Below, piece after piece: positions 2,835 to 26,693 of a stretch of DNA of 32,033 nt. Each line of letters opens with the position of its first letter. Position 1 is the first letter of the stretch. The stretch is taken from the IMG/VR virus record IMGVR_UViG_3300017773_000074, positions 1 through 32,033 of that record, one strand, 5' to 3'. This DNA is from a virus. The notes under the pieces are model-generated. The model ran no database searches. It saw only the letters and a list, made by a program, of their open reading frames with translations, and was not told where the DNA came from. The position numbers were made by a program, and so were the translations under genes.

Positions 2835-4325
2835 ATGGCGCTTTTTGACTTTCTACGCCCAAAGAAGCAAAGCCCAATGCTCAATAAGCGAGAATTTTCC
2901 GGTGCAAATGTCAGTCGGCTGTTTCACGACTTTAAAGACTCTAATCGCAGTGCTGACAGTGAGCTTCAGCCTGTTATACGTCGACTTCGTAATAGATCAA
3001 GAGATTTAGCTCGGAATAATGAATATGTGAAGCGATATTTGCATTTGCTTAAGACAAATGTGGTCGGCGATCGTGGATTTACTCTTCAAGTAAAGGCTAC
3101 CGGTGCTAGTGGACAATTGGACGAAACCGGTAATCAGGCGATTGAAACTGCATTTAAAGCCTGGGGCAAGGTTGGCCGATGCACTGTAGACGGAAAGCTT
3201 TCTTGGATTGATGCACAAAAAATGGCTATAGAGGGCCTAGCTCGTGATGGCGAGGTATTTATAGTAAAGCATCGTAATGGTTCTTTTCGTGACTCATTTG
3301 CTATTGAATTTATTGAGCCTGATAGAGTAGATGAGCAGTTAAGTCGACGTGAACCAAACGGTAATGAAATACGCATGGGTGTGGAATTCGATGAGTTCCG
3401 TCGTGCTGTCGCTTATCACATGCTCTCATATCATCCCGGCGACTATGATTATACGAGCGCAAGCAAAAGTACAAAGCACGTTCGTATTCCTGCGGATAGA
3501 GTTATTCACTTGTTCATGCCGATACGAGCCGGGCAGACGCGAGGCGAGCCTTGGACAGCAGGTGCATTATCAGCAATAAAGCAGTTATCTGGATATAGAG
3601 AGGCTGCAGTAGTCAACGCTAGAGTTGGCGCATCGAAGATGGGCTTTTTTACTTCTCCTGCGGGTGATGGATTCGCTGCTGACGCTATGGATCAAGAAGT
3701 CCCAATAATGGACGCGGAACCGGGGACATTTCATCAGCTCCCAACGGGTGTTTCTTTTACTAGCTTTGATCCACAGTTTCCAACCAGTGACTTTGACTCA
3801 TTCCACAAGTCTGTGCTTAAAGGGATAGCTAGTGGTCTAGGTGTTTCTTATACCTCATTGTCTAACGATCTAGAAGCTACATCCTATAGCTCTATACGAC
3901 AGGGTGCTTTAGAAGAGAGAGACTTCTATCGTCAAATACAACAGTTTCTAATGGAGCATTTTGTACGACCTATATATGAATCTTGGTTAGAAGCTGCAAT
4001 GGAGTTGAACTCGTTTGATCTACCTTTGCGTCAGCTAGATAGATTTTCAGATGCTTCGGAGTTTCGTGGAAAGGCTTGGTCATGGGTTGATCCACAGAAA
4101 GAAATGAATGCAGCAATTTTAGGTTTAAAGAATGGAATTCTTTCATTGCAGGATGTTGCTTCTCAGTATGGAAAAGACGTTGAGGAGCTTTTGGCGCAAA
4201 TTAAGCGTGACAAGATTCTTATGCAACAGTTTGACGTTGAATACGCGTTAGAGCCATATTGCGCTAGTCAGGTGAGTATTGAGCCAAACATCATAGGAGG
4301 CGATGATGGCGAAGTACAAGGGTAA
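2835..4325 (+). CDS. Portal protein, lambda gpB family
   Basis: This would be the dodecameric portal that forms the DNA channel at one capsid vertex and docks the terminase. The 496-residue protein has the family's features: a basic N-terminal segment, NNEYVKRYLHLLKTNVVGDRG early on (each residue stretch typical of portals that follow GpA terminases), then GLARDGEVFIVK, FIEPDRVDE, and IHLFMPIRAGQTRGEPW, followed by a C-terminal helical region with LEATSYSSIRQG and WSWVDPQKEMNA. It begins directly after the TAA of the gpW-like gene, and its last 23 bases overlap the start region of the protease-capsid ORF. Family length is usually about 500 residues, so this is full length. No separate gpC is needed because the protease is carried by the next ORF. 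Confidence 0.93.
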   Translation: MALFDFLRPKKQSPMLNKREFSGANVSRLFHDFKDSNRSADSELQPVIRRLRNRSRDLARNNEYVKRYLHLLKTNVVGDRGFTLQVKATGASGQLDETGNQAIETAFKAWGKVGRCTVDGKLSWIDAQKMAIEGLARDGEVFIVKHRNGSFRDSFAIEFIEPDRVDEQLSRREPNGNEIRMGVEFDEFRRAVAYHMLSYHPGDYDYTSASKSTKHVRIPADRVIHLFMPIRAGQTRGEPWTAGALSAIKQLSGYREAAVVNARVGASKMGFFTSPAGDGFAADAMDQEVPIMDAEPGTFHQLPTGVSFTSFDPQFPTSDFDSFHKSVLKGIASGLGVSYTSLSNDLEATSYSSIRQGALEERDFYRQIQQFLMEHFVRPIYESWLEAAMELNSFDLPLRQLDRFSDASEFRGKAWSWVDPQKEMNAAILGLKNGILSLQDVASQYGKDVEELLAQIKRDKILMQQFDVEYALEPYCASQVSIEPNIIGGDDGEVQG

Positions 4326-24741: not shown

Positions 24742-25099
24742 TAAAAAGAAGACATATCCTCGTGGCATTTATGCCAATCGCACGGAAAAAGTACCTAGTT
24801 TTGTGCGATCTAACGTGAAGATTGATAATGCGAAGGCCATCGAATGGCTTCAGTCACAAACGGCTCCATACACGCATTTACAGATCTTAGAATCGCATCA
24901 GGTAGACGAGTACAATAATACTGTTTATATCTGCGTTGACGATTATCAAATGGAGCGTCAGCGCGAAAAAGCCAGTGAGGGCTTAAAGCAAGCAAACCAA
25001 GTTCTTCAGCAGCAGAGCGCAAAGCCTGATGAAGATGAGTTGCCATTACCACAGTTTGGACATAAAGATGAAACAGCAGAAGACGACATCCCTTTTTAA
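24734..25099 (+). CDS. Putative single-stranded-DNA-binding-like protein with SSB-type C-terminal tip
   Basis: The 121-residue product starts at ATG 24734, with GAGGAG (24721-24726) at good spacing; a longer in-frame start at 24719 is less likely. The N-terminus has YPRGIYANRTEKVPSFVRSN, a beta-like part follows (KIDNAKAIEWLQSQ, THLQILESHQVDEY, TVYICVDDYQ), then a Gln/Ala-rich linker and an acidic end finishing DDIPF, the tip by which bacterial SSB recruits partner proteins. Small proteins with this YPRGIY start and DDIPF end recur beside ERF or RecT genes. A classic full-length OB-fold SSB is not apparent. Binding to single strands and tethering of replication partners is inference. Confidence 0.7.
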   Translation: MDSKKKTYPRGIYANRTEKVPSFVRSNVKIDNAKAIEWLQSQTAPYTHLQILESHQVDEYNNTVYICVDDYQMERQREKASEGLKQANQVLQQQSAKPDEDELPLPQFGHKDETAEDDIPF

Positions 25100-25292
25100 C
25101 GTGGGAGAAAGCCTTAGAAAGGCACAAAAAAAGCAGAAGGTGACTAACAAGTCTCTTTCTGAGAATTTTGGAGTAAGTCTTGTGCAGGTCGGTCGTTGGA
25201 GAAACTGCACTGACATGCGTATTGGTCACATAGAAGCCATTTCTAATTACCTTGGAATGGATGTGTACGAATTTTTAGAGTTGGGTAGGTGA
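25068..25292 (+). CDS. Small XRE-type helix-turn-helix DNA-binding protein
   Basis: The frame is open from 25029. The start at 25068 gives 74 residues and overlaps the previous gene by 32 bases; the downstream GTG at 25102 is an alternative that would begin right at the HTH domain. The core runs GESLRKAQKKQKVTNKSL then SENFGVSLVQVGRWRN, with the recognition helix around VSLVQVGRW, and ends with IEAISNYLGMDVYEFLEL, the classic Cro/CI-type arrangement. It could be a Cro-like or activator protein controlling the early genes. Operator-like dyads at 29361 and 29630 are possible targets, but nothing links them directly. Confidence 0.75.
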   Translation: MKQQKTTSLFNVGESLRKAQKKQKVTNKSLSENFGVSLVQVGRWRNCTDMRIGHIEAISNYLGMDVYEFLELGR

Positions 25293-25293
25293 A

Positions 25294-25458
25294 ATGAGTG
25301 AACATCCCTTTGATTGTCCTGTTTGCCTACAGCGTTATTGGAGAGACGACTCTTCTATCTATGACGATCGGTACGACGATAGCGTCTGTTGCAACTGTGC
25401 AGAAGAGCCTATTTGTGAATACTGGTTAGAGGAGCAAAAAAAAGCCCCCTTGGGATAG
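25294..25458 (+). CDS. 54-residue CxxC protein, probable zinc-binding
   Basis: A short frame beginning one base after the HTH gene stop, too short for usual gene-length cut-offs. It has CPVC near residues 8-11 and CCNC near 32-35, with a further Cys at 41, a layout suited to one zinc site. The middle is acidic and Tyr-rich (SSIYDDRYDDS). The last codons (KKAPLG) lie inside the strong hairpin at 25444-25463. Start spacing and the tight fit with the previous gene support reality. Such tiny CxxC proteins are frequent in phage regulatory regions and often bind host proteins. The role here is unknown. Confidence 0.6.
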   Translation: MSEHPFDCPVCLQRYWRDDSSIYDDRYDDSVCCNCAEEPICEYWLEEQKKAPLG

Positions 25459-25463
25459 GGGGC
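25436..25463 (-). terminator. Terminator for minus-strand transcription
   Basis: GCCCCC (25444-25449) pairs with GGGGGC (25458-25463) around an eight-base loop. On the plus strand the hairpin is preceded by eight A residues (25436-25443) and has no T-run after it. On the minus strand the same sequence is a hairpin followed by T8, a strong terminator. No minus-strand gene is visible to the right of it, so a minus-strand RNA, or protection from antisense transcription, is implied. Confidence 0.65.
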
Positions 25464-25800
25464 AAATCATGTAAGGAACCACTCTTACTCTTTGCTAAAG
25501 GGGTTGAAGCAAAGAAAAGACATAATAGTCTTATGAAAGATAGAAGTCACCCCCTAGTCGAGCCTAGAAAAATAATGCTGTCTCAAGTTGCAGCTGCTCA
25601 TAAAAGACTGAATCAACCCCTTACCTTTGAGGGCGGGGACAAACAGCGGTTAATGTTGCCAAGTAGTTAGGGCGTCGTGATGGCAGAGCGATAAATGATC
25701 TGCGCTGATATTTGGGGTTGAGGGACTAGCGTTATAAAAATTTGTATAGGGCAACTACCGCCCTCTAATGACCACTATTGTCTGAAGAAAGGGGAAAAAA
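25459..25800. ncRNA. Structured intergenic region, candidate non-coding RNA
   Basis: A 342-base stretch with no confident gene but dense complementarity. Perfect local stems: GTAAG 25471-25475 with CTTAC 25484-25488; CTTTGC 25490-25495 with GCAAAG 25509-25514; AAGAC 25517-25521 with GTCTT 25528-25532. Long-range pairs: AAGGGGTTGA 25498-25507 with TCAACCCCTT 25613-25622 (10 bp, its left arm being the loop of the second hairpin); GTCTTATGA 25528-25536 with 25598-25608 (two-base bulge); GAGGGCGG 25629-25636 with CCGCCCTC 25758-25765. GGGGTTGA recurs at 25714-25721 and could compete for 25613-25620. A regulatory RNA or a complex leader for gene 25801 is possible; strand is uncertain. Confidence 0.4.
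25533..25670 (+). CDS. Possible 45-residue protein inside the structured region
   Basis: A frame of 46 codons including the stop, beginning at the base of the hairpin 25517-25532. The product is basic, with PLVEPRKIMLSQVAAAHKRL and a short LTFEGGDKQR segment. The ribosome binding site is weak (purine-rich AAAGAAAAG upstream of the hairpin). It overlaps the long-range pairings, so it may be a leader peptide whose translation alters RNA folding, or simply a chance frame. Confidence 0.3.
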   Translation: MKDRSHPLVEPRKIMLSQVAAAHKRLNQPLTFEGGDKQRLMLPSS

Positions 25801-26175
25801 ATGATTACTAAAACTGGAGAAGACTGGCAGCCAACAGACGAGCAATTGCTGGGATGGCAACACGCCTACCCAGAAGTCGACATATTCGCAGAGCTTAACG
25901 TGATGGCTGTATGGCTTGAGTCTAACGAGCCAAAGCGAAAGACAGATCGCGGAATGCCTCGCTTTGTTAACTCATGGCTCTCTCGGGCAAATCAAAAGGG
26001 CGGCAGTCCGTTTGCGCAAGAAGCAGAGAAAGAAAGCGGCAAGATACCAATTAAAAAGTGGACCCAGCTTGACGATTGCAGTCACGATTTTATGCAAAGC
26101 GAAAGCTATCGGAAGTACTGCCTTGATCGGTTTGGTCAGTATGTAACCTTTAGCGGTGAGAGGGTGACGCGATGA
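25801..26175 (+). CDS. Putative replication-associated protein
   Basis: A 124-residue protein, preceded by GAAAGGGGAAAAAA before ATG 25801. The segment VMAVWLESNEPKRKTDRGMP followed by RFVNSWLSRANQKGG matches a W/L-x-N-x-R-K/K-T-G-F-x-x-W-L pattern found in C-terminal parts of phage replisome-organiser and DnaT-like proteins, where it helps load the host helicase. The rest is charged and helical (residues 1-30 and 75-124) and has no recognisable ATPase or DNA-binding motif. This is the only replication initiation candidate in the window, so the phage would rely on host polymerase and helicase. The stop overlaps the next start (ATGA). Confidence 0.5.
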   Translation: MITKTGEDWQPTDEQLLGWQHAYPEVDIFAELNVMAVWLESNEPKRKTDRGMPRFVNSWLSRANQKGGSPFAQEAEKESGKIPIKKWTQLDDCSHDFMQSESYRKYCLDRFGQYVTFSGERVTR

Positions 26176-26693
26176 TCGTTCATCTAAACAAACAAGAAAT
26201 GGCGCTTACGGAGCAAGCTGGTAAGTTGCGGTGGCAGTTAGCACGCGCGGCAGGGGTCAAGGACAGAGTCGTAGATAAAGACCGTAATCCATACGATATT
26301 GACTGTTTGGGTGTTCGTGCGGAAGTCGCTGTAGGTAAATTGCTCAATTTAGACTTTTCTGCTGCGACATTGGGCATTGATTCGGGCGGTGATTTATTTG
26401 TACCGATCAAAGACGATGATTTTATGTCTTTGCAAATTAAGGCAACATTTCATAAAAGCGGAAATTTGTTATTCCGACATGACTGTAAATTTGAGTTTCA
26501 AACGGCTTTGCTTGTCTGCCAAATGTCTTCTGATGTTTACGACGTGGTGGGGTGTATGGGAGTTCAGCAGATACAAGCCAGGAAAATCAAAGTCGATAAA
26601 GGCAAGGGCTATGTTGGATGGCAAATTAATCGTACTGATTTAGCACCGGTAAGCGACTTGTGGGCATATATACAGAAGAGGCGTTACTCATGA
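26172..26693 (+). CDS. PD-(D/E)XK-like nuclease-fold protein
   Basis: A 173-residue protein with the arrangement of a restriction-endonuclease-like core: a helix with Glu51 in GVRAEVAVGKLLNL, Asp74 in IDSGGDLFV, and Gln88-x-Lys90 in SLQIKAT, giving E, D and QxK at spacing typical of this fold. Strands after the motif (LLFRHDCKF, TALLVCQM, YDVVGCMG) and a C-terminal helix SDLWAYIQKRR fit as well. It could be a structure-specific or recombination nuclease acting with ERF, NinB and NinG neighbours. Substrate cannot be told. It overlaps genes on both sides by four bases, so expression is coupled. Confidence 0.55.
   Translation: MIVHLNKQEMALTEQAGKLRWQLARAAGVKDRVVDKDRNPYDIDCLGVRAEVAVGKLLNLDFSAATLGIDSGGDLFVPIKDDDFMSLQIKATFHKSGNLLFRHDCKFEFQTALLVCQMSSDVYDVVGCMGVQQIQARKIKVDKGKGYVGWQINRTDLAPVSDLWAYIQKRRYS

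Follow-up and report, generated by a model that had tools for sequence, protein, structure and literature searches.

A conserved pseudoknotted RNA of many marine phages, very probably a leader, with a probable small RNA on the opposite strand

The stretch of phage DNA between a Cro-like HTH gene and the ORF at 25801 accommodates two RNAs: a plus-strand leader at 25553-25796 and, on the minus strand, a probable sRNA at 25517-25436. The leader is about 240 nucleotides long, has homologues in more than 100 viral contigs and is almost certainly a real conserved structured RNA. The window, meaning the whole stretch of DNA analysed and the source of all coordinates given here, is a 32,033-base virus record with phage genes. 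A preliminary description of positions 25459-25800 had proposed a new regulatory RNA, possibly a leader for the gene at 25801. What stands of that proposal is a conserved, covarying, non-coding RNA that ends directly before a ribosome-binding site and has no Rfam match; the 5' half of the region belongs to the separate minus-strand sRNA, and regulation is a role that we infer.

Along the window lie a GpA-like terminase, portal, tail, lysozyme, ERF recombinase, the Cro-like HTH gene, the studied region, ORF 25801, NinB and NinG. The nearest relatives of the terminase are those of Roseobacter phages CRP-811 to CRP-831 and CRP-406 (56-58%); the three examined, CRP-811, CRP-821 and CRP-406, differ in their early genes and are not matched by the leader model. 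ORF 25801 (25801-26175, plus strand, 124 aa) is preceded by a likely Shine-Dalgarno sequence, AAAGGGG at 25788-25794. Its product matched no Pfam or PHROG entry, and it has 55 relatives in viral contigs.

In these relatives, a block matching 25553-25796 is conserved at 76-80% identity with a sharp 5' edge, and lies upstream of the ORF, in some cases at a distance of a few hundred bases with other genes in between. Positions 25459-25552 are outside this block and are conserved in a single relative (L051). The block is non-coding: a 45-aa ORF at 25533-25670, considered as a coding reading, is lost in relatives, which have 1-nt indels and some 4-6 stops in each frame, and no conserved reading frame is open in them on either strand.

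The fold of the leader is a double pseudoknot in which helices A and D cross helices B and C, accompanied by smaller helices. Along the RNA the elements run P1 (with F), A5, C5, D5, B5, H1 (with h3), an optional H2, D3, A3, B3, C3 and a tail. P1 pairs GCTG at 25577-25580 with CAGC at 25591-25594 and is 92.7% paired; the AGT of its conserved loop (25586-25588) forms pseudoknot F with ACT at 25607-25609 (85.4% paired), so that P1 and F together occupy 25577-25609, and both show both-side changes at every pair. Helix A joins TCAACCCC (25613-25620) to GGGGTTGA (25714-25721). It is followed by the invariant ACCUUU at 25623-25628, whose CC may form a 2-bp helix J with the GG before GACAAA; read by eye, this helix covaries in cultured phages as CC/GG in most, CG/CG, GC/GC and CU/AG. 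Helix C (GAGGGCG at 25629-25635 with CGCCCTC at 25759-25765) is 96.2% paired, with both-side changes at 4 of 6 pairs. Helix D (CAGCG at 25644-25648 with CGCTG at 25703-25707) is 99.7% paired and occurs as CAGCG/CGCTG, CAGTG/CACTG, CAGTT/AACTG and CAGGG/TCCTG, and helix B (GTTGCC at 25655-25660 with GGCAAC at 25750-25755) is 89.1% paired. Hairpin H1 (25675-25702; TCG at 25675-25677 with CGA at 25689-25691) and h3, in which its loop CAGA (25684-25687) pairs with TCTG at 25699-25702, are less well supported, with 59% and 42% of cells paired respectively, partly because of misalignment. The element closes with a conserved tail, TAATGACCACTATTGTC, at 25766-25782. Two further helices that had been noticed, CTAGTC/GACTAG and CAATAG/CTATTG, are unsupported across families.

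Where hairpin H2 is present, differing stems surround a shared loop, AGAYACCCA. This loop, AGAUACCCA, is nearly constant despite the differing stems (L132, L057, L173 and others) and may resemble the 790 loop of 16S rRNA.

Covariation among relatives clearly bears this fold out. When the helix strands were sought by geometry in 91 loci, they were nearly always complementary and widely different in sequence. When 60 distinct rows were aligned with a CM, pairing reached 81.7% of cells against 31-49% with the partners slid, both-side changes occur in 414 cells against 148 in shuffles, and the covariation score was reached by 0 of 500 shuffles; this alignment took A, D, P1, H1 and H2 into its fitting but left out B, C and F, whose pairing is 89%, 96% and 85%. 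Aligning with MAFFT only led to the same covariation answer. Helix A occurs in 47 distinct strand combinations, and its own strands match at 10.0 of 12 positions against 5.9 of 12 when swapped, a test in which the best register was picked per sequence and which thus favours the own value. Its pairs include 57 GU against 10 AC, an excess which indicates that the plus strand is the folded RNA.

The complementarities listed in the preliminary description all sit where they were placed, as far as each was checked, and those within the conserved block proved to be part of this fold. The eight-pair stem between GAGGGCGG (25629-25636) and CCGCCCTC (25758-25765) is helix C, paired in 96% of cells, and the pairing of 25613 with 25714 is helix A; both exceed chance by far in their covariation. 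Within the region, GGGGTTGA does occur only at 25500 and 25714, and TCAACCCC only at 25613. The switch between two exclusive folds that had been built on these copies does not hold, as only the copy at 25714 belongs to the conserved fold. Likewise, the 10-base contact of AAGGGGTTGA (25498-25507) with TCAACCCCTT (25613-25622) is present in the sequence but not conserved, and L051, the only relative that aligns at 25459-25552, has no complement for it. The bulged helix between 25528 and 25598, with one strand in the same unconserved part, is also without conservation. Of the preliminary description's own tests, covariation comes out clearly in favour and folding energy against: the free energy of the region as a whole is unremarkable beside dinucleotide shuffles on both strands (z -0.86 and -0.84), and judged by energy only the region would have been discarded.

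Homologues were collected by pattern and model searches. A 16-base pattern was found in 68 contigs, among them four without the element (L094, L107, L111 and L117), and a core pattern in 113 stretches, including families too divergent to be linked by blastn (L125, L126, L128, L129, L132, L136, L141, L152, L155 and L166 among others); one core-pattern match, L139, was due to chance. CM R1, built from 24 divergent sequences with the window's own type left out, finds the window at 25561-25785 with 114.8 bits (E 2.9e-30). Searches of 369 and 385 cellular genomes, run without a positive control, gave no full-length match, and 17 pattern matches in cellular genomes (L174-L190) were chance-like. A contig of a cellular genome classed as a Gammaproteobacteria MAG (L196, 1026-1144, minus strand) apparently has the 3' part of the element only (GATCACC to CTCTAAATGACTACTATTGTC).

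Cultured phages also carry the element. With ORF 25801 as the query, tblastn reached Vibrio phages 1.122 and 1.275; the gap of 600 bases that precedes a C-5 methylase there contains a divergent form, seen by eye and missed by the CM. The window element and two divergent members, compared with phage records by blastn, gave no relevant match; AT-rich members did reach such records, and blastn from the 1.122/1.275 form and L136 led to Vibrio breoganii phages 1.131, 1.132 and 1.189, Pseudoalteromonas phages BS5 and HS2, and Vibrio phages NF, 1.071, jenny 12G5, K66-K75 and others. For CM R1, the cores of 1.131, BS5 and HS2 are weak hits (E 8e-5 to 3e-4). In a shuffle test written after the helices had been seen in these sequences, correctly ordered helices A, B and C beat all 150 shuffles in 1.131, BS5, 1.071, jenny 12G5 and 1.275, and 149 of 150 in HS2; phage NF (L202) failed the strict form of the test (42/150). 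The divergent homologues lie in gaps (L199 2500-2690, L200 and L201 2960-3150, L203 and L205 2960-3240, L198 3400-3660), several of them directly before DNA methylase genes. TTGCAT-17-TATAAT stands upstream of the element in 1.071 and K68. In phage 1.275 (L198), a terminator-like structure at 3140-3235, made of a long hairpin and a T run after it, immediately precedes the leader.

In the regions read, the cultured-phage records have no RNA annotation on the element; in K68, an annotated small hypothetical ORF, possibly a spurious gene call, covers the conserved core of the leader (L204 2844-3053). Rfam 15 has no family at gathering score in the window, and a permissive scan of the leader part returned only algC (RF02929) over 25736-25796 at 22.8 of the required 33.8 bits as a match of note. 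The leader of L132 and L129 drew no match of note in permissive scans, and scans of divergent contigs and cultured phages found only one tRNA each. The element is not described in the literature searched, which was incompletely covered and excluded preprints. Leader RNAs as such are familiar; neither this fold nor its distribution among phages appears in those sources.

The position of the element is very regular. The conserved tail ends a median of 19 nt before the start codon, and no more than 26 nt before it in 61 of 66 distinct loci. The first genes downstream, with a start required within 30 nt, fall into 24 unrelated families in 94 loci. An RNA whose 3' end lies near the start codon of so many unrelated genes is best read as a portable 5' leader, and it very probably acts in cis. 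The operons behind it contain helicase, primase, RecT, methylase and head genes, as judged by reading their sequences. The W-family phages have the element after the Cro-like HTH gene, a small gene intervening in some cases. The distance to the next gene is longer in BS5, 1.131, L102, L140, L153, L164 and L166, the spacer being about 100-200 nt in BS5 and 1.131. In L136 (13694-13995, minus strand) the leader comes directly after a tRNA gene and before a DNA methylase gene.

Our leading explanation, put forward tentatively, is that 25553-25796 is the large 5' leader of a phage operon and acts in cis on translation initiation of the first gene. In its fold, helices A/D interlock with B/C, and the conserved joining segments ACCUUU, GGGRAYAAA and GAUGA come together at the double-pseudoknot junction. 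The leader would be transcribed together with the downstream genes, and its folding state, or a bound protein or ligand, would set translation initiation of the first gene and hence expression of the operon. That control is exerted at this step rather than by another cis mechanism has close to an even chance. Translation initiation is ranked ahead of antitermination of the put type because the tail so regularly adjoins the ribosome-binding site, although this tight spacing may partly come from compact genomes, and the longer gaps in some relatives count against it. When the alignments were inspected by eye, no alternative pairing that would mask the Shine-Dalgarno sequence was seen to be conserved.

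Antitermination is the reading ranked second, and an unlikely one: the nascent RNA would fold and bind RNA polymerase, enabling it to pass the terminators of the downstream operon. The precedent is HK022 putRNA, a cis-acting RNA of phage early operons that alone acts on RNA polymerase (PMC9378689), and the operon-level position of the leader, the irrelevance of the first gene, its frequent place ahead of replication operons and the variable spacing in BS5 and 1.131 all agree with such a role. However, putRNA has about 70 nt and two stem-loops compared to the about 240 nt and several pseudoknots here, a spacing of 10-26 nt to start codons would not be needed, and the terminator prediction over 25000-26600 came out empty on the plus strand, the stretch between the leader and ORF 25801 included. 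The same lack of a terminator after the element in the window, and a ribosome-binding site that almost always adjoins it, make it improbable that this is a trans-acting non-coding RNA encoded upstream of genes by happenstance, even though its complex fold, its independence of the neighbouring gene and the spacer of BS5 and 1.131 would suit one.

Slightly less probable still is a ribozyme, self-cleaving or processing, whose action would trim the leader immediately ahead of the ribosome-binding site. Invariant unpaired segments gathered at a multi-pseudoknot core and a conserved 17-nt tail after the last helix are features in its favour, but the element matches no Rfam family, ribozymes included, and no catalytic signature was recognised. 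That the element works as DNA, for instance as a replication origin or a primase site that folds when single-stranded, is highly improbable: it is non-coding and lies beside replication genes in several phages, yet GU pairs far outnumber AC pairs, its position before start codons is directional, and it also precedes head genes and methylases. A broader idea, which we regard as rather unlikely, is that the leader is a previously unrecognised, widespread phage RNA machine, be it a leader ribozyme or an RNA acting directly on the ribosome or RNA polymerase, which unrelated marine phages place as a portable control cassette before the first gene of an operon.

On the minus strand, 25436-25517 probably encodes an sRNA of two hairpins, one with a C-rich loop, and a terminator. 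This segment folds better than shuffled sequence (z -3.55, 2/200 shuffles), and an intrinsic terminator is predicted at 25444-25463 on the minus strand although all neighbouring genes are on the plus strand. A promoter-like GTGACT-17-TATTAT, recognised by its match to the consensus, lies at 25522-25550 (minus), with its -10 inside the palindrome AAGAC..GTCTT. The three short hairpins that had been described at 25471-25532 are real (GTAAG/CTTAC at 25471/25484, CTTTGC/GCAAAG at 25490/25509 and AAGAC/GTCTT at 25517/25528) but belong to this opposite strand and not to the leader. W-family relatives have the same arrangement on their minus strand, namely a promoter-like -10 in a palindrome, two hairpins and a terminator at the end of the upstream gene, and their terminator stems show compensatory changes. 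The Rfam model anti-hemB (RF02837) scores 35.8 bits on the minus-strand RNA (E 7.6e-7), below its gathering score of 49.5. The RNA resembles anti-hemB and other C-rich-loop sRNAs in having two hairpins and then a terminator, with a C-rich loop; unlike anti-hemB, it is phage-encoded and its score is sub-threshold.

It is conceivable, if somewhat doubtful, that the C-rich loop pairs with Shine-Dalgarno sites, including that of the leader's own gene, and so represses translation. In the window, the loop CCCCUUU is complementary to AAAGGGG at 25788-25794, the Shine-Dalgarno sequence of ORF 25801, and such pairing could form in many relatives. In W-family phages the base beside CCCUU agrees with the matching target base in 36 of 44 (Fisher p 1.7e-4, a value that is overstated because related phages share ancestry). 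However, the match may reflect that ancestry or the general purine-richness of such sites, AAGGG-like sites being common in Shine-Dalgarno sequences, and the complementarity is not kept in L051.

The leader is a large fold supported by covariation, absent from Rfam and present in many marine phages, cultured Vibrio and Pseudoalteromonas isolates included. For one carrier, PSA-HS2, time-resolved RNA-seq has been published (PMC7082346). The independence of the leader from the downstream gene suggests a general route by which phages control whole operons through RNA, a proposition that is testable.

Among the large RNAs linked to bacteria and phages, GOLLD and ROOL are far larger than the leader and are not known as operon leaders. 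The leader shares with them the character of a large, ornate RNA (PMC12286853), and it has no Rfam match. Riboswitches and orphan structured leader motifs (PMC2864571, PMC11109978) are comparable in having a conserved pseudoknotted, aptamer-like 5' leader fold that ends at the ribosome-binding site; in contrast to these, the leader is phage-borne, matches no Rfam family and precedes 24 unrelated first-gene families instead of one pathway. Like the putL and putR RNAs of HK022 it is a structured RNA heading phage operons, with action in cis inferred in its case, but putRNA has two stem-loops in about 70 nt (PMC9378689), whereas the leader builds interlocked helices from about 240 nt.
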